Assembly: GCF_023544715.1 (NCBI RefSeq)
Contig: NZ_JAMJEZ010000001.1
Location: forward strand, 124,001 to 188,000
Source of the DNA: Pseudomonas eutrophicaquae
GTDB taxonomy: Bacteria > Pseudomonadota > Gammaproteobacteria > Pseudomonadales > Pseudomonadaceae
Length of the DNA: 64,000 nucleotides
Direction of reading: 5' to 3'
In this document: one piece after another, positions 40,763-49,180 of the stretch
Numbering within the stretch: the stretch's first letter is position 1
Layout: the number at the start of each line of letters is the position of its first letter
Notes under the pieces: generated by a model
Databases searched by the model: none
What the model saw: only the letters and a program-made list of their open reading frames with translations
What the model was told of the DNA's origin: nothing
Program-made: the position numbers and the translations under genes

Positions 40763-41020
40763 ATGACTGAAGAAAACACCGAGCTCAAACGTCTGCAGTG
40801 GGAGTGCCGTCGCGGCATGCTGGAGCTGGATGTCCTGCTCAAGCCCTTCCTGGATGAGGCCTATCCCCAGCTGGATGCCGAGGATCAGGCGCGCTTTCGC
40901 AAGTTGCTCAAGTGCGAGGACCCGGATCTGTTCAGCTGGTTCATGGCCTACAGCACGCCTGAGGATGCCGACTATCAGCGCATGGTTCGCATGATCCTCG
41001 CGCGTGTCCAGCCGCACTGA
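40763..41020 (+). CDS. sdhE: succinate dehydrogenase assembly factor SdhE (YgfY)
   Basis: An 85-residue protein with RRGMLELD (the conserved RGxxE motif, residues 18-22), which covalently attaches FAD to SdhA. Helical throughout, as in the family. ATG at 40763 ([10 protein letters not shown]), preceded by GGAGG. The gene overlaps ygfX by 17 bases; in E. coli the two form an operon as well. Confidence 0.93.
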
Positions 41021-41474
41021 GCCCTTCCTCTGCCACTGGCGCCCCTCGCGGCGCCTGCTGGCACTCTATCTGGGTCTGCTGGGGCTGCTGGCCCTGGCAG
41101 GTTTGTCCAGTCCTCTGCCATTGACTGTGCTCAGTCTGCTGCTGAGTCTGGCGCTGCTGCACGCCGGCTGGCTGCTCTCGCGCACCCTGCTGCCCGGTGG
41201 CCGTTACGCCACCGGCAGCCTGCGCCATGATGCAGAGGGCTGGTGGCTGCAGTCGGGCGGGGAGGGTTGGCAGCCGATCCAGCTGCGCCCCGGTACGCTG
41301 GTGCTGCCGGCGCTGGTCGTGCTGCAGTATCGCCAGCCCGGTCAGTGGTTCGACCGAGCCCTGTGCCTGCCGGCGGATAGCCTGGATGCTGGGGCGCACC
41401 GGCGTCTGCGGGTGCGCCTGCGCTTTGCCCGGGCGTCTCAGCCCGCGCGGCCAGCGGATCAGACCGGTCGATAA
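41004..41474 (+). CDS. ygfX: YgfX-like small membrane protein
   Basis: A 156-residue protein with two close hydrophobic segments (about 18-33 and 38-62), followed by a soluble beta-rich part with [17 protein letters not shown]. It matches YgfX (CptA) by layout and its place after sdhE; YgfX has been called a toxin affecting cytoskeleton proteins in E. coli, not clearly conserved in function. GTG start at 41004 inside sdhE. The 3' end overlaps convergent nadB by 16 bases. Confidence 0.75.
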
Positions 41475-43078
41475 GCCGGCGGCACCAGCAGGGTGTCCCG
41501 GGCGTCGCTCAGGGTTTCCGGGTAGTCGAGGGTGTAGTGCAGGCCGCGGCTCTCGTGGCGCAGCATGGCCGAGCGGATCATCAGATCGGCGACCAGCGCC
41601 AGGTTGCGCAGCTCGATCAGGTCGCGACTGACCTTGTAATTGCTGTAGAACTCGTCGATCTCCGCCAGCAGCAGGCGCACCCGGTGCTGGGCGCGCTGCA
41701 AACGCTTGCTGGTGCGCACGATGCCGACGTAATCCCACATAAAGCGCCGCAGTTCGTCCCAGTTGTGCGCAATGATCACATCCTCGTCCGAGTCGGTGAC
41801 CTGGCTGGCATCCCAGCCCGGCAGGGTGCGCGGGACGCCGCTGTGCGGTAGCTGCTGGACGATATCGGCTGCCGCGGCGCGGGCGTAGACGAAGCACTCC
41901 AGCAGCGAGTTGCTGGCCAGCCGGTTGGCGCCATGCAGGCCGGTGAAGCTGGTCTCGCCGATCGCATACAGGCCGGGCACATCGGTCTGGCCGTGGTGAT
42001 CGACCAGCACACCGCCGCAGGTGTAGTGGGCCGCCGGCACCACCGGGATCGGCTCGCGGGTGATGTCGATGCCAAAGCCCAGGCAGCGCTCGTAGATGGT
42101 CGGGAAGTGTTCGCGGATGAACTCGGCGGGCCGGTGGCTGATGTCCAGGTATACACAGTCGATGCCCAGGCGCTTCATTTCATGGTCGATGGCGCGGGCG
42201 ACGATGTCGCGCGGGGCCAGCTCGCCGCGCGGATCGAAGCGGAGCATGAAGCGCTCGCCGTTGGGCAGCTTGAGCTGTCCGCCTTCGCCGCGCACCGCTT
42301 CGGTGATCAGAAAACTCTTGGCCTGCGGGTGGTACAGGCAGGTCGGGTGAAACTGGTTGAACTCCAGATTGCCGACCCGACAGCCCGCGCGCCAGGCCAT
42401 GGCAATGCCATCGCCGCAGGTGCCGTCCGGGTTGCTGGTGTAGAGGTAGACCTTGGCGGCGCCGCCGGTGGCCAGCACCACGAAGCGCGCAGCGAAGGTA
42501 TCGACCTCGCCGCGCCGGCGATCCAGCACATAGGCGCCGAGGCAGCGATTGCCCAGCCCGCCGAGCTTGCGCTCGGTGATCAGATCAACCGCCACGCGCT
42601 GCTCCAGCAGCTCGATGTTCGGGCGCTGACGCGCGCGCTCAAGCAGGGTGGTGAAGATCGCAGCACCGGTGGCGTCAGCCGCGTGGATGATGCGCCGATG
42701 GCTGTGGCCGCCCTCGCGGGTCAGGTGGAAGGCAAAGCCCTGCTGGCCGCGGCTGTGTTCATCGTCGCGGGTGAAGGGCACGCCCTGCTCGATCAGCCAG
42801 TCGATGGTCTCGCGGCTGTGCTCAACGGTGAAGCGCACGGCATCTTCATGGCAGAGACCGGCGCCGGCGACCAGCGTGTCCTGGACATGGGAGTCGATGT
42901 TGTCGCTGTCGTCCAGCACGGCGGCGACGCCGCCCTGGGCCCAGTAAGTGGAGCCGCCGGCCAGATCGCCCTTGCTCAGGACGGCGACCTTGAGGTGCTC
43001 GGGCAGATTGAGTGCCAGGGCAAGGCCGGCACCGCCGCTGCCGATGACGAGGACGTCGTACTGATGATGCTGGCTCAT
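41459..43078 (-). CDS. nadB: L-aspartate oxidase
   Basis: A 539-residue FAD enzyme, first step of de novo NAD synthesis (aspartate to iminoaspartate). It has [17 protein letters not shown] (FAD), [41 protein letters not shown] and [28 protein letters not shown] at 43078 ([13 protein letters not shown]) with GGAAG upstream. Divergent from algU, exactly as in P. aeruginosa. Together with nadC and nadE, this window holds three NAD-synthesis genes in separate places. Confidence 0.96.
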
Positions 43079-43210
43079 GGGAACTGAACTTCCGCGATAA
43101 CGGGGCTGCCTAGTATATCCAAGGCCCAATCGGCAAAATACCGGCCGTCTCGGCGGCTTTTACCGGCAGCCGGCCTGCGGGATCGCGAACGGCTGCCGCC
43201 GCCCCCAGCA

Positions 43211-43236
43211 GAACTTTCATCGCAGCCCCAGGTCTA
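43211..43236 (+). promoter_or_regulatory. AlgU (sigma-E-type) autoregulatory promoter
   Basis: GAACTT (43211-43216), 16-base spacer, TCTA (43233-43236). This follows the AlgU/RpoE consensus GAACTT-N16/17-TCTGA. It is 63 bases upstream of the algU start, which fits the autoregulated promoter known from P. aeruginosa algU. Confidence 0.7.
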
Positions 43237-43298
43237 CGCCACACTGGTCGGGCCTGTCGGGGTCTGCCTGCCTGCCCGGGCATTGATTAGGAGTCGCA

Positions 43299-43880
43299 AT
43301 GCTAATCCAGGAAGCCGATCAGCAACTGGTCGAGCGTGTCCAGCGCGGTGACAAGCGCGCGTTCGATCTGCTGGTGCTCAAGTACCAGCACAAGGTGCTC
43401 GGACTGGTCGTGCGCTTCGTGCACGATGCCCATGAGGCGCAGGACGTCGCCCAGGAGGCCTTCGTCAAGGCGTACCGGGCGCTGGGCAATTTCCGCGGGG
43501 AAAGTGCCTTTTACACCTGGCTATACCGCATCGCGGTGAACACGGCCAAGAATCACCTAGTCGCTCGCGGCCGCCGCCCGCCAGGCAGCGATGTGAGTGC
43601 CGAGGATGCCGAGTTTTTCGAGGGTGATCATGCCCTCAAGGATATCGAGACCCCCGAGCGCGCCCTGCTGCGCGACGAGATCGAGGCGACCGTGCATCGC
43701 GCCATCGCCGCGCTGCCGGAGGAGCTGCGTCGGGCCCTGACCCTGCGCGAGTTCGAGGGCCTGAGTTACGAGGAGATTGCCAGCGTCATGCAATGTCCGA
43801 TAGGAACGGTGCGCTCGCGGATCTTCCGCGCGCGTGAAGCGATCGACAAGGTGCTGCAGCCGCTGCTGCAGGAATCCTGA
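43299..43880 (+). CDS. algU: ECF sigma factor AlgU (AlgT/RpoE)
   Basis: A 193-residue extracytoplasmic-function sigma factor, same length as P. aeruginosa AlgU. Region 2 is seen in HKVLGLVVRFVHDAHEAQDVAQEAFVKAYRALGNFRGESAFYTWLYRIAVNTAKNHL and region 4 in LPEELRRALTLREFEGLSYEEIASVMQCPIGTVRSRIFRAREAI. It directs envelope-stress and, in many pseudomonads, exopolysaccharide genes. AGGAG 6 bases before the ATG. Preceded by its own AlgU-type promoter and followed by the anti-sigma gene, 31 bases on. Confidence 0.97.
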   Translation: MLIQEADQQLVERVQRGDKRAFDLLVLKYQHKVLGLVVRFVHDAHEAQDVAQEAFVKAYRALGNFRGESAFYTWLYRIAVNTAKNHLVARGRRPPGSDVSAEDAEFFEGDHALKDIETPERALLRDEIEATVHRAIAALPEELRRALTLREFEGLSYEEIASVMQCPIGTVRSRIFRAREAIDKVLQPLLQES

Positions 43881-43911
43881 GGACAGGCAGTACCCGCCCG
43901 GAGAAAACATC

Positions 43912-44433
43912 ATGAGTCGTCAATCCCTGGAAGAATCGCTGTCTGCCGTCATGGATGGCGAGGCGGATGAGCTGGAGCTGCGCCGTGTGCTGGGCAGCGA
44001 CGATGCAGCCTTGCGTGCGCGCTGGGCGCGTCAGCAGCTGGTACGCGATGTGATGCACGGCCAGACCGTGCAGCCACATCTGGATCTTGGTGCCGGCATC
44101 TGGTCCGTCATCGAGGCGGAGGACTCTGCAGTCGCTCGCCCGCCGGTCGCCTCCAATCGCTGGCAGCGTCTGGGGCGTTACGCCGTGGCGGCCAGTGTGA
44201 CGCTGGCGGTGCTGGCGGGGGTGCGCTGGTATCAGGGCGGGGAACCGGCCGTTTCCACCCTGGCGCAGCAGGCGCCAACCCCGGTGAGTGCGCCCGCCAG
44301 CGTGGTGCCGCCTCAGGCGCCGGCCGTGCTGGCCAGCTACCCGGCGACGAGCGAGCCTGTACAGGAGTCAGCGTCGGTCACTGACGAGGCGCAGATCCTG
44401 CGCGCGCTGCCGGCCGATGCAGCAGATCGCTGA
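43912..44433 (+). CDS. mucA: anti-sigma factor MucA, with a short periplasmic tail
   Basis: A 173-residue single-pass membrane protein. The cytoplasmic part starts MSRQSLEESLSAVMDGEADELELRR and would bind AlgU; the membrane segment is about 89-107 (RYAVAASVTLAVLAGVRW). The periplasmic part is about 66 residues, Pro/Ala-rich, containing APAVLASYPA and ending ALPADAADR. P. aeruginosa MucA (194 residues from memory) has about 20 more residues there. The missing part is a C-terminal region after the VLAGY stretch, reported to bind MucB. mucB is absent from this operon. GGAG lies 10 bases upstream of the ATG. Confidence 0.94.
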   Translation: MSRQSLEESLSAVMDGEADELELRRVLGSDDAALRARWARQQLVRDVMHGQTVQPHLDLGAGIWSVIEAEDSAVARPPVASNRWQRLGRYAVAASVTLAVLAGVRWYQGGEPAVSTLAQQAPTPVSAPASVVPPQAPAVLASYPATSEPVQESASVTDEAQILRALPADAADR

Positions 44434-44442
44434 GGCACGACC

Positions 44443-44910
44443 ATGATTGAAGAAAGTGCGCGGGTGGTGGCGGTCGAGGCGGGTGCGGTCTGGGTGGAAA
44501 CCCTGCGGCGCAGCACCTGTAGCGCCTGCTCGGCGAGTGCCGGTTGTGGGCAGGGCTTGATGGAGAAGCTGGGTGTTGGTCAGCGCCGCGGCTATGTGCG
44601 CGCCCTGTGCCGCGCGCCGGTGCAGGTCGGCGATCAGGTGGTGATCGGGATCGCCGAAGCGCTGCTGGTGCGCAGCTCCTTGCTGGTCTATTTGCTGCCG
44701 CTGCTGGGGCTGTTTGCCGGCGCTCTGCTGGCCGAGTGGTTGGCGCTGGGCGAGTCTTTTGTCATTCTGGCGGCCTTGGCGGGCTTGCTCCCGCCGTGGC
44801 TACTGGTACGCAGCTACAGTCGCCGGCGCGGCGATGACCCCGCCAATCAGCCTGTGGTGCTGCGGGTTGAGTCGGTTCCCGCGACCCTGCACTGCGTCGA
44901 AATCCACTGA
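44443..44910 (+). CDS. mucC: MucC/RseC-family envelope stress modulator
   Basis: A 155-residue membrane protein. The N-terminal part has CSACSASAGCGQGLMEKLG with the clustered cysteines of RseC/MucC; two hydrophobic segments lie at about 85-105 and 107-125. The family modulates the sigma-E/AlgU pathway and may also influence redox or iron-sulfur functions. It starts 10 bases after the mucA stop, in the position normally taken by mucB. Confidence 0.9.
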   Translation: MIEESARVVAVEAGAVWVETLRRSTCSACSASAGCGQGLMEKLGVGQRRGYVRALCRAPVQVGDQVVIGIAEALLVRSSLLVYLLPLLGLFAGALLAEWLALGESFVILAALAGLLPPWLLVRSYSRRRGDDPANQPVVLRVESVPATLHCVEIH

Positions 44911-44934
44911 TTGTCATCGAGGAGTCCCTGACTC

Positions 44935-46362
44935 ATGCGAATGCTCAAGCACACCCTGCTGTCGCTGGCGGCGCTGCTGCTGACCGCCCAGGCGCTGGTT
45001 GCCCATGCCCGGCTGCCGGAGTTCACCGAACTGGTCGAGCAGGCCTCGCCGGCGGTGGTGAACATCAGTACCCGTCAGGCTGCCTCGCCCCGGTCGGCAG
45101 CGATTCCCCCCCATGCCCTGCCGGATCTGGAAGGCCTGCCGCCGATCTTTCGTGAGTTCTTCGAGCGCAGCCTGCCGCAACTGCCGCCGGGGCATCCGCC
45201 GCAGCAGCGCCAGCGTCAGGCGCAGTCGCTGGGGTCGGGCTTCATCATTTCTGCCGACGGCTATGTGCTGACCAATAACCACGTGATTGCCGATGCCGAT
45301 GAGATCATCGTGCGGCTCTCCGATCGCAGTGAATTGGAAGCCCGGCTGGTCGGTGCCGACCCGCGCACCGATGTGGCGCTGCTCAAGGTCGAAGGCAAGG
45401 GCCTGCCCAGCGTCAAGCTGGGCAAGTCCGAGAACCTCAAGGCCGGCGAATGGGTGCTGGCGATCGGCTCGCCGTTTGGTTTTGATCACTCGGTGACGGC
45501 CGGGATCGTCAGTGCCAAGGGCCGCAGTCTGCCCAACGAGAACTACGTGCCGTTCATCCAGACCGATGTGGCGATCAACCCGGGTAACTCCGGTGGTCCG
45601 CTGTTCAACCTCGACGGCGAGGTGGTCGGCATCAACTCGCAGATCTTCACCCGCTCCGGTGGCTTCATGGGGCTATCGTTTGCGATTCCGATCGATGTGG
45701 CCATGCACGTGGCCGAGCAGCTCAAGACCACCGGCAAGGTGCAGCGCGGCTGGCTCGGGGTGGTGATTCAGGAGGTCAGCAAGGATCTGGCCGAGTCCTT
45801 CGGTCTGGAGCGCCCGGCCGGCGCTCTGATCGCGCAGGTGCTGGACGGTGGTCCGGCGGCGCGCGGCGGGTTGCAGGTGGGGGATGTGATTCTGGCCATC
45901 GACGGTCAGCCGATCGTGGTGTCCGCCGATCTGCCGCACCGGGTCGGCAACCTGAAGCCGGGCATCCGGATCACGCTGGATGTGGTGCGCCGTGGTCAGC
46001 GTCAGCCGGTCACTCTGCTGATCGATGCGCTGCCCGAGGAGGGCATGGCGCTGGCGGGTAGTGGCGATGCGCCGGCGCGCAGCAGCAACCGTCTGGGTGT
46101 GTCGGTGGTGGATCTCACCGCCGAGCAGCGCAAGGCGCTGGAGCTGGAGGGCGGTGCGCTGATCCGTGAGGTGCAGAACGGGCCGGCAGCGGCCATCGGC
46201 CTGCGTCCGGGCGATGTCATCACCCACCTCAACAACCAGTCGATCGACTCGGCCAAGACCTTCGAGCGGGTCGCCCAGGCGCTGCCGAAGAACCGCAGTG
46301 TGTCGATGCGCGTGCTGCGTCAAGGGCGCGCCAGCTTCATCACCTTCCGCCTGAGCGAGTAA
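44935..46362 (+). CDS. mucD: periplasmic serine endoprotease MucD (DegP/HtrA type)
   Basis: A 475-residue secreted protease, 474 in P. aeruginosa from memory. Signal peptide residues 1-25 (cleavage near AHA). Catalytic triad His116 (TNNHVIADADE), Asp146 (DPRTDVALLKV) and Ser219 (NPGNSGGPLFN). Two PDZ domains follow (GWLGVVIQEVSKDLAESFGL near 275; GVSVVDLTAEQRKALELEGG near 387). It degrades misfolded envelope proteins and so dampens AlgU activation. Last gene of the algU unit; a hairpin terminator follows. Confidence 0.96.
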   Translation: MRMLKHTLLSLAALLLTAQALVAHARLPEFTELVEQASPAVVNISTRQAASPRSAAIPPHALPDLEGLPPIFREFFERSLPQLPPGHPPQQRQRQAQSLGSGFIISADGYVLTNNHVIADADEIIVRLSDRSELEARLVGADPRTDVALLKVEGKGLPSVKLGKSENLKAGEWVLAIGSPFGFDHSVTAGIVSAKGRSLPNENYVPFIQTDVAINPGNSGGPLFNLDGEVVGINSQIFTRSGGFMGLSFAIPIDVAMHVAEQLKTTGKVQRGWLGVVIQEVSKDLAESFGLERPAGALIAQVLDGGPAARGGLQVGDVILAIDGQPIVVSADLPHRVGNLKPGIRITLDVVRRGQRQPVTLLIDALPEEGMALAGSGDAPARSSNRLGVSVVDLTAEQRKALELEGGALIREVQNGPAAAIGLRPGDVITHLNNQSIDSAKTFERVAQALPKNRSVSMRVLRQGRASFITFRLSE

Positions 46363-46377
46363 GGGCCGGCTGGGGCA

Positions 46378-46403
46378 ACCGGAGGCGCTGCGGCGCCTTC
46401 GGT
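46378..46403 (+). terminator. terminator after mucD
   Basis: An 11-bp stem (ACCGGAGGCGC with GCGCCTTCGGT, one G-U pair), 4-base loop TGCG, then CGTTTCTG. It ends the algU-mucA-mucC-mucD unit, 16 bases after the mucD stop. Confidence 0.6.
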
Positions 46404-46460
46404 CGTTTCTGGGCCGGGACAAGACGGTCGGCGTGGGTTACGCCACGCCGGGCGATAGGC

Positions 46461-46466
46461 TAGAAT
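46461..46466 (+). promoter_or_regulatory. -10 box of a lepA promoter
   Basis: TAGAAT, 55 bases upstream of the lepA start and after the mucD terminator. A -35 at 17 bases (TTACGC) is poor. Confidence 0.4.
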
Positions 46467-46520
46467 CCGCGACTATTTTCGGCGGGCTGAGCCCGCGCTC
46501 TCTTTCCGAGTGTTGAGCCC

Positions 46521-48320
46521 GTGAGTGATCTGAGTCATATCCGTAACTTCTCCATCATCGCCCACATCGACCACGGTAAGTCGACGCTGGCGGATCGCTT
46601 CATTCAGATGTGCGGTGGCCTGTCCGACCGTGAGATGGAAGCTCAGGTGCTCGATTCCATGGATCTGGAGCGCGAGCGCGGCATCACCATCAAGGCCCAT
46701 AGCGTGACCCTGCACTACAAGGCGCAGGACGGTAAAACCTACCAGCTGAACTTCATCGACACCCCCGGCCACGTCGACTTCACCTATGAGGTCAGCCGCT
46801 CGCTGGCCGCCTGCGAGGGCGCGCTGCTGGTGGTGGACGCCGGTCAGGGTGTCGAGGCGCAGTCGGTGGCCAACTGCTACACCGCCATCGAGCAGGGTCT
46901 TGAGGTGATGCCGGTGCTGAACAAGATGGACCTGCCCCAGGCTGAGCCGGAGCGGGTCAAGGAAGAAATCGAGCACGTCATCGGTATCGATGCCACCGAT
47001 GCGGTGGCATGCAGCGCCAAGAGCGGCATGGGCGTGATCGACGTGCTGGAGCGCCTGGTCGAGGTGATTCCGCCGCCGGAGGGCGATATCGACGCGCCGC
47101 TGCAGGCGCTGATCATAGACTCCTGGTTCGACAACTACCTGGGTGTGGTCTCGCTGGTGCGGGTGCGCCACGGCCGGGTCAAGAAGGGCGACAAGATCCT
47201 CGTCAAGTCGACCGGCAAGATGCATCAGGTCGACAGCGTTGGCGTATTCACGCCCAAGCACACCGCCACCGCCGATCTCAAGGCCGGTGAGGTGGGCTTC
47301 ATCATCGCCGGCATCAAGGACATTCAGGGCGCCCCGGTTGGCGATACCCTGACGCTCTCCACCACCCCGGATGTCGAGGTGCTGCCGGGCTTCAAGCGCG
47401 TCAAGCCGCAGGTTTATGCCGGTCTGTTCCCGGTCAGCTCCGATGACTTCGAAGACTTCCGTGATGCGCTGGAAAAGCTGACTCTCAACGACGCTGCGCT
47501 GCAGTACGAGCCGGAAAGCTCCGACGCGCTGGGCTTTGGCTTCCGTATCGGCTTCCTTGGCATGCTGCACATGGAGATCATCCAGGAGCGCCTGGAGCGC
47601 GAGTATGACCTGGACCTGATCACCACCGCACCGACCGTGGTGTTCGAGGTGGTGCTGAAGAACGGCGACATCGTCTACGTCGATAACCCGTCCAAGCTGC
47701 CGGACCTGGCGTCGATCGCCGAGATGCGCGAGCCGATCTGCCGCGCCAATATTCTGGTGCCCCAGGATCACCTGGGCAGCGTGATCACCCTGTGCGTTGA
47801 AAAGCGCGGTGTGCAGCGTGACATGAGCTTCCTCGGCAGTCAGGTGCAGGTCAGCTATGACATGCCGATGAACGAGGTGGTGATGGACTTCTTCGACCGC
47901 CTCAAGTCGGCCAGCCGTGGCTATGCCTCGCTGGATTACAGCTTTGATCGCTTCCAGCCCGCCAACCTGGTGCGCCTCGATGTGCTGATCAACGGCGAGC
48001 GGGTCGATGCTCTGGCGCTGATCGTCCACCGCGACAACGCGGCCTACAAGGGCCGTCAGTTGGTCGAGAAGATGAAGGAGCTGATCCCGCGGCAGATGTT
48101 CGATGTCGCCATTCAGGCCGCCATCGGTGGCCAGGTGGTCGCACGCTCGACCGTCAAGGCGCTGAGAAAGAACGTTCTGGCCAAATGCTACGGCGGTGAC
48201 GTAAGCCGCAAGAAGAAGCTGTTGGAGAAGCAGAAAGCGGGCAAGAAGCGCATGAAGCAGGTTGGCAGCGTGGAAATCCCGCAGGAAGCCTTCTTGGCTG
48301 TGCTCAAGGTCGATAGCTGA
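46521..48320 (+). CDS. lepA: ribosome-associated GTPase LepA (elongation factor 4)
   Basis: A 599-residue EF-G-like GTPase affecting ribosome assembly and initiation. Motifs: [13 protein letters not shown] (G1), [16 protein letters not shown] (G3), [10 protein letters not shown] (G4). The LepA-specific C-terminal part ends in [32 protein letters not shown] start at 46521; weak Shine-Dalgarno. Followed 11 bases later by lepB, the usual pairing. Confidence 0.97.
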
Positions 48321-48331
48321 GGTCGCTGCCG

Positions 48332-49180
48332 GTGAACTTCCCATTGATGCTGGTGATCGCCGTGGCCGTGTGCGGCGCACTGACCCTACTCGATCGCCTG
48401 TATCTGGCTCCCCGGCGCCGGGCTGCCATTGCCAATTATCACCTGGCGGCCGGGCAGTCGGATCCGCAGGTGGTGCAGCGGTTGTCCCGTGAGCCGGTGC
48501 TGGTGGAATACGGCAAGTCGTTCTTCCCGGTGCTGGCGCTGGTGCTGGTGCTGCGCTCCTTTGTGGTCGAGCCGTTCCAGATTCCCTCAGGCTCCATGCA
48601 GCCGACGCTGGAAGTGGGCGATTTCATCCTGGTGGACAAGTTCTCCTACGGGCTGCGCCTGCCGGTGCTGGATACCAAGGTGCTGCCGGTCGGTGAGCCG
48701 GCGCGCGGTGATGTGATGGTGTTCCGTTATCCGAGCGATCCACGCATCAACTACATCAAGCGGGTGGTTGGCCTGCCGGGTGACCGCCTGGTGTACACCG
48801 GCGACAAGCGCCTGTTGATCAATGGCCAGCCGGTGGCCGAGCAGCTGGTGGGCGATGAGCCGGGTAGTCTCGGCAGCGCCCGGCTGTACAAGGAGCGGCT
48901 GGGCGAGATCGAGCATGTGATCCGCAAGGAGATGCGCCGTTATCGCATGGAGCCCAGTCGCGAATGGGTGGTGCCGGCTGGGCATTACTTCCTGATCGGC
49001 GACAACCGCGACAACTCCAACGACAGCCGCTACTGGGATGATCCGGCCATTGCGCCTGCCTTGCAGGGCATGGTTCCGGACGATCACATTGTCGGCAAGG
49101 CCTTTGCCATCTGGCTGAGCTGGCCTGCGCCCAAGCTTGCCAACCTGCCGACCCTCGCCCGTGTCGGGCTGATCCACTGA
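48332..49180 (+). CDS. lepB: signal peptidase I
   Basis: A 282-residue inner-membrane peptidase that cuts Sec and Tat signal peptides. Two hydrophobic segments (2-20 and 65-80), then IPSGSMQPTL with nucleophile Ser88, and RINYIKRVVGLPGD with general base Lys143; GDNRDNSNDSRYWD is box E. GTG start 11 bases after lepA. Essential gene. Confidence 0.96.
   Translation: MNFPLMLVIAVAVCGALTLLDRLYLAPRRRAAIANYHLAAGQSDPQVVQRLSREPVLVEYGKSFFPVLALVLVLRSFVVEPFQIPSGSMQPTLEVGDFILVDKFSYGLRLPVLDTKVLPVGEPARGDVMVFRYPSDPRINYIKRVVGLPGDRLVYTGDKRLLINGQPVAEQLVGDEPGSLGSARLYKERLGEIEHVIRKEMRRYRMEPSREWVVPAGHYFLIGDNRDNSNDSRYWDDPAIAPALQGMVPDDHIVGKAFAIWLSWPAPKLANLPTLARVGLIH

Follow-up and report, generated by a model that had tools for sequence, protein, structure and literature searches.

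Joint absence of mucB and of the MucB-docking helix of MucA in the algU operon of Pseudomonas eutrophicaquae and its relatives

The algU operon in the window, i.e. the whole 64,000-nucleotide stretch of Pseudomonas eutrophicaquae DNA analysed here, lacks the mucB gene and encodes a MucA protein from which the MucB-docking helix is missing, and across the Pseudomonadaceae genomes examined these two features changed together on several separate branches. Envelope stress is sensed via two inputs, unfolded porins (through AlgW or DegS) and stray LPS (through MucB or RseB), and one of the two seems to have been removed repeatedly, along with the helix that holds the residues identified by mutants. 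We consider it likely that mucB was cleanly deleted, that the MucA dock for MucB decayed and that AlgU is now released by AlgW alone, without the lipid input of MucB, the functional part of this reading being deduced from sequence.

The mucA-mucC junction and the distribution of MucB

The operon of the window lies on the forward strand and begins with algU (positions 43299..43880; 193 aa), which encodes an rpoE-type ECF sigma factor matching TIGR02939 with 327.6 bits (cut-off 236.15) and the Pfam sigma-70 r2 and r4 profiles. It is followed by mucA (43912..44433; 173 aa), coding for an anti-sigma factor with the RseA_N domain (PF03872, 49.2 bits; cut-off 24) and without the MucB-binding alphaI and alphaII helices, by mucC of the RseC family (44443..44910; 155 aa; PF04246, RseC_MucC, 117.9 bits), and by mucD (44935..46362; 475 aa), whose product is a Do-family serine protease (TIGR02037, 515.2 bits). 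The genes flanking the operon are those that we take to be nadB, on the minus strand before algU, and lepA after mucD. The TGA codon of mucA occupies positions 44431-44433 and the ATG of mucC starts at 44443, leaving a gap of 9 bases (44434..44442, plus strand) at the place of mucB in P. aeruginosa-type operons. When 11 MucB proteins were compared by tblastn with positions 41001-49000 of the window, no mucB was detected between mucA and mucC, the only two hits (E=0.99) lying elsewhere. An earlier note on this DNA, made from the sequence alone, had claimed that the gap holds no mucB remnant, and both the coordinates and the tblastn search confirmed it. The whole-genome profile search for MucB/RseB that the note had proposed gave no match to either MucB domain (PF03888 and PF17188) anywhere in the genome that holds the window (G000; 2.55 Mb, 57 contigs, 99.85% complete). 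This genome is small within its genus, the eight other members having 3.2-4.7 Mb.

All nine genomes of the window genus, three of which (G002, G003 and G008) are single-contig, were found to be devoid of MucB, and all nine carry mucC at the locus. The same mucA-mucC adjacency was observed in the named records L025-L029, which correspond to P. sagittaria, P. linyingensis, 'S. stutzeri' K1, P. oryzagri and P. sp. A-1; among named records, their MucAs are the closest to that of the window. NCBI places P. sagittaria in a genus Geopseudomonas, of which the window is presumably a member. PF03888 had no match in five of the nine genomes and partial matches (E values of 3e-8 to 3e-7) in G001, G004, G006 and G008. 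These partial matches were rejected as MucB, the three that were read being a 288-aa protein (L021-L023), presumably LolA-like, encoded beside a gene that we take to code for an RND-type transporter. The weak PF03888 matches in G001 and in G009, a genome outside the genus, were likewise discarded, given their E values, the incomplete span of the matches and a mucA locus without MucB.

Among 299 Pseudomonadaceae genomes, PF03888 matched in 280 and was missing in 19, and five of the 280 (G001, G004, G006, G008 and G009) showed weak matches only. MucB is thus absent in 24 of the 299 genomes, 23 of which have MucA; the remaining one (G077; 70% complete, no MucA match) was left out, reducing the MucB-less set from 24 to 23. 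This set comprises the nine members of the window genus, ten of the 13 genomes of g6, G009 (g2), G033 (g10), and G289 and G302 (g14), and MucB is retained in the relatives G026, G113/G120/G134, G017/G066, G282 and G306/G317. No MucC match was obtained at the locus in seven other MucB-less genomes (G009, G013, G029, G033, G127, G289 and G302), nor in four MucB-containing ones (G026, G113, G282 and G288), and MucC therefore cannot be a general substitute for MucB.

The docking helix of MucA and its changes on the tree

In the crystal structure of the MucA-MucB complex, helix alphaI (R157-S177) is the major MucB contact; among the mutants tested, MucB binding was lost only with those at W158, R162 and H170A, alphaII could be deleted, and alphaI of E. 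coli RseA is stated to bind RseB (all from excerpts of PMC7400510). The numbering of W158, R162 and H170 was counted on a MucA of 194 aa (L001), where these residues fall at those places. To follow alphaI, we used a His170 motif, [YFL][ILMVF]..H, whose last residue corresponds in the alignment to His170 of MucA from P. aeruginosa, with A later allowed at the second place of the motif. MucA was examined in 119 of the 299 genomes, i.e. all 23 MucB-less genomes and 96 of the 275 others. The motif (A allowed) was present in 96/96 MucAs from MucB-containing genomes versus 0/23 from MucB-less genomes, and the stricter form gave 95/95 versus 0/23 in the first tree set of 118 genomes. In the 96 proteins that have the partner, W stands opposite W158 in 89 and R opposite R162 in 88. 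The window MucA does not contain the motif, i.e. alphaI with W158, R162 and H170 is absent, in agreement with the proposal of the note that the missing tail is the MucB-binding part of the protein.

The note had also estimated a periplasmic region of about 66 residues. We counted 68 residues after the transmembrane stretch VTLAVLAGVR (residues 96-105, recognised as a sequence pattern), which is indeed shorter than the median of 92 (range 76-99) of the MucB-containing group, a value based on the 87 of 96 proteins in which the pattern was found, nine being missed. Nevertheless, the MucB-less MucAs have 59-81 such residues, so the lengths overlap between the groups, and therefore the motif, not the length, is the clean difference. 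Six MucB-containing genomes (G017, G019, G020, G035, G066 and G068) keep the His170 motif and have no alphaII-like sequence, and the dispensability of alphaII is thus repeated in nature. The remaining tail is not the same after each loss: MucA of G009 ends in ASENR, those of G289 and g6 retain nothing recognisable, and that of G302, aligned by eye to its MucB-containing sister G282, retains YLRQQAQQ with W158, R162 and H170 absent.

To place these changes, a tree of NadB, AlgU, MucD and LepA was built by a quick method from 67 genomes (44 with MucB and 23 without; seven rows under half filled). It replaced an earlier, poorly resolved tree of AlgU and MucA residues 1-85 (118 genomes, G225 having been dropped for its partial AlgU), on which five changes were counted, four of them forced. 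On the four-protein tree MucB required six changes and the tail six changes, their states being identical in every row, and five of the six changes were forced by well-supported (starred) branches. When independent pairs were compared, the tail went with MucB in 5/5 pairs on starred branches, with six pairs on the best tree, and a sign test on the five supported independent pairs gave p=0.0625. Aligning the MucA C-termini and mapping mucB on the Pseudomonadaceae tree, as had been suggested, therefore revealed a coordination of the two losses stronger than originally claimed, the helix motif tracking MucB without exception in 119 MucAs and through six changes on the tree. In other words, the MucA tail alone predicted the presence of MucB in every Pseudomonadaceae genome examined.

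The tree itself does not separate gain from loss, and the direction is taken as loss because mucB-like remnants were found and MucB is common. Between mucA and mucD (loci L241 and L243), G302 has a stretch of 39 nt (82%, E 8e-5) that matches inside mucB of its sister G282, and G009 has one of 61 nt (77%, E 2e-6) that matches inside mucB of G026. Read as mucB remnants, these stretches suggest recent losses, and the lack of a remnant in the window would fit a deletion that was clean and took place longer ago. The two losses are found together on several distinct branches of the Pseudomonas family and so do not look like a single deletion event; the envelope-stress alarm seems to have been rewired more than once.

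The proteolytic route and alternative readings

AlgW of P. aeruginosa cuts MucA within VLAG (residues 134-137) and is activated by the C-terminus of MucE, and lipid A also stimulates AlgW directly (excerpts of PMC8545111). In the window, the sequence VLASY (MucA residues 139-143; 44326..44340, plus strand) matches this cleavage region, and the proteolysis region is thus kept, as the note had stated. A strict cleavage pattern (one of VLA, ILA, MLA, LLA and MLT, followed by G/S/N and by Y/F) was found in 20 of the 23 MucAs from MucB-less genomes, the failures being G006, G008 and G033, and in 90 of the 96 from genomes with MucB.

We looked for homologues of the two proteases and found both in all 20 genomes tested, including G000. 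AlgW (G000:C33:49279-50376 in the genome of the window) keeps the H/D/S triad positions in the alignment of all 20, every score being below the TIGR02038 cut-off. All the MucP proteins exceed the TIGR00054 cut-off (147.55 bits; that of G000, at G000:C3:42315-43664, scores 391.9 bits), the match crossing one TAA in G005 and G007. L120, initially considered as MucP, was rejected, MucP then being found elsewhere by TIGR00054; L120 is presumably a carboxy-terminal-protease-like ORF beside a peptidase-like one. With AlgW and MucP both encoded and the region cut by AlgW preserved, the proteolytic pathway appears to be intact. This finding and the missing MucC of other MucB-less genomes argue against the suggestion that AlgU control rests on MucC and MucD alone. 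The AlgW score of G000 was the lowest of the 20 (317 bits, the others reaching 328-354), and in the alignment of L090-L109 a shortened or divergent LA-loop region was seen in G000, G013/G029 and G033 and, in part, in the MucB-containing G113, the other MucB-less genomes having the canonical form. Regulation of AlgW in G000 may therefore also have changed, its low score being accompanied by an LA-loop unlike that of its sisters.

According to the explanation that we favour, the ancestor of the genus, a Geopseudomonas-like group that includes P. sagittaria and P. linyingensis, would have undergone a clean deletion of mucB from an algU-mucA-mucB-mucC-mucD operon, and the MucA segment used for docking MucB would then have decayed. 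That leaves MucA with an AlgW cleavage region and a short periplasmic tail, presumably unshielded, together with the proteases AlgW and MucP; the cutting route is thus retained, and the shield and its docking helix are lost. Release of AlgU would be set by the allosteric state of AlgW alone, as dictated by unfolded outer-membrane-protein or MucE-like C-termini, with lipid perhaps acting directly on AlgW, and the second check, in which lipid A pulls MucB off MucA, would have been lost, turning a two-signal gate into a one-protein gate.

MucB might instead have been replaced by an unrelated periplasmic protein that shields the cleavage site, so that the two-signal gate persists. The docking point would be the sequence ILRALP close to the C-terminus of the window MucA (44395..44412, plus strand), a case of the genus-specific pattern [LI][LI]R.[LV]P, which was defined post hoc. 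The pattern occurs in 9/9 MucAs of the genus and in 0/110 other MucAs (last 62 residues), a count that is descriptive because the motif was first noticed by eye. In 5000 shufflings of the C-terminal 40 residues of each genus tail, never more than one of the nine showed the pattern, and its start, 12-23 residues from the C-terminus, fits a docking peptide; it is therefore a candidate docking motif that could mark a replacement partner. However, the nine genomes are closely related and the pattern was drawn up after viewing their sequences, mucC and mucD follow mucA directly in the aligned genus loci with no new gene inserted, and the 14 other MucB-less genomes, from five lineages, do not have the pattern. 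We regard a replacement of MucB as unlikely.

An equally improbable explanation is relaxed selection, in which the fine brake on AlgU was lost because alginate had been lost. The AlgE-family profile PF13372, a match to which does not prove alginate export, found nothing in G000, G003, G033 and G302, and the remaining seven members of the window genus gave weak matches only (8.5e-11 to 2.3e-4). In contrast, three of the six MucB-less lineages showed strong PF13372 matches, namely G009 (9.8e-103), G289 (3.5e-97) and g6 (3.7e-78 to 2.4e-77 in three of the ten genomes, those searched), and MucB is present in G017, which has no PF13372 match, and in G022, G066 and G282, whose matches are weak only. 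Alginate loss is thus already inconsistent as a general cause, and it could still hold for the window genus. That genus may not export alginate, yet it keeps algU-mucA-mucC-mucD. Finally, although G000 is a draft of 57 contigs, an assembly error, or a relocated mucB with an intact MucA tail, has a negligible probability, since neither MucB domain occurs anywhere in G000 and the MucB-binding tail is absent from all nine genus MucAs, and assembly collapse is excluded because eight further genus genomes, three of them single-contig, and the named records share the mucA-mucC structure without MucB.

MucB-less and fused systems outside the family and comparison with known systems

At the order level, PF03888 matched in 209 of 254 genomes (95% completeness asked) and had no match in 45. 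RseA was sought in 27 chosen genomes, 22 of them MucB-less or weakly matching and five serving as controls, and 19 contained RseA_N. The His170 motif was absent in 8/8 unfused RseAs without MucB at the locus (G053, G337, G340, G369, G388, G392, G414 and G428), G392 and G414 having weak PF03888 matches (2.7e-5 and 5.6e-5). Of the five controls outside the family, four have the motif, and the MucB-containing G514 lacks it. MucB was not found at the locus and the His170 motif was absent in the f42 loci L256, L261, L264 and L267 and in L039, whose tails are alike, with RL.(D/E/V)YI and later an RLV or RPV ending, perhaps for another partner.

In family f35 a different arrangement was observed. Pfam searches showed RseA_N and the C-terminal domain of MucB (PF17188) in one chain, without PF03888, in 3/3 proteins (L250:1354-2310, L251:1483-2331 and L258:1396-2316), and in 36/36 loci (34 genomes, two read twice) one frame was matched both by a profile of the MucA N-terminus and by one of MucB. 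In 60/60 f35 genomes, from 16 genera, the frame containing PF17188 is 266-331 aa long, with 59 of the 60 over the cut-off. Searches of whole genomes gave no PF03888 match in G333, G362, G386, G427 and G444, and a weak one (1.1e-7) in G408. An alphaI-like motif (A allowed) precedes or reaches the fused domain in 35 of the 36 loci, and in six loci the fusion is followed, as judged by eye, by mucC-like and mucD-like frames. The fused protein of G408 lacks the motif. The f35 fusion is a natural single-chain version of the MucA-MucB complex, and the alphaI motif appears to be mostly kept where the bound domain is kept, even fused, and lost where that domain is lost.

We tentatively put forward, as a rather doubtful generalisation, that the MucA tail reveals which rewiring of the lipid input each lineage has undergone: MucB may be kept; it may be dropped together with the helix (six times in Pseudomonadaceae); its C-terminal domain may be fused to MucA, the lipid-binding domain having been given up (in the other family); or it may be replaced by a partner reading [LI][LI]R.[LV]P (in the window genus). 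The sister pairs G302/G282 and G009/G026 make the value of the lipid input measurable.

Neither the absence of mucB in Pseudomonadaceae nor a MucA-MucB fusion was reported in the titles and abstract openings of the literature searched. Compared with the algU-mucA-mucB-mucC-mucD operon of P. aeruginosa, the window shares the sigma factor, the anti-sigma factor, MucC, MucD, the S1P AlgW, the S2P MucP and the VLA region, and differs in having neither MucB nor the MucB-binding helix of MucA. The rpoE-rseA-rseB-rseC operon of E. coli, with DegS and RseP, forms a homologous pathway, in which RseB is present and senses LPS. A further likeness is to Stenotrophomonas maltophilia and Xanthomonas campestris, which, as described in excerpts of PMC4229105 and PMC10433810, have an rpoE-rseA-mucD operon without RseB, i.e. 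sigma-E and RseA followed directly by the later operon genes. Unlike that operon, the window contains mucC, and the loss in Pseudomonadaceae can be compared with the tails of MucB-containing sisters. Taken together, RseB-less sigma-E operons were already known; as far as the literature searched shows, what appears to be new is that Pseudomonadaceae lost MucB repeatedly and each time along with the docking helix, and that f35 has the fusion.
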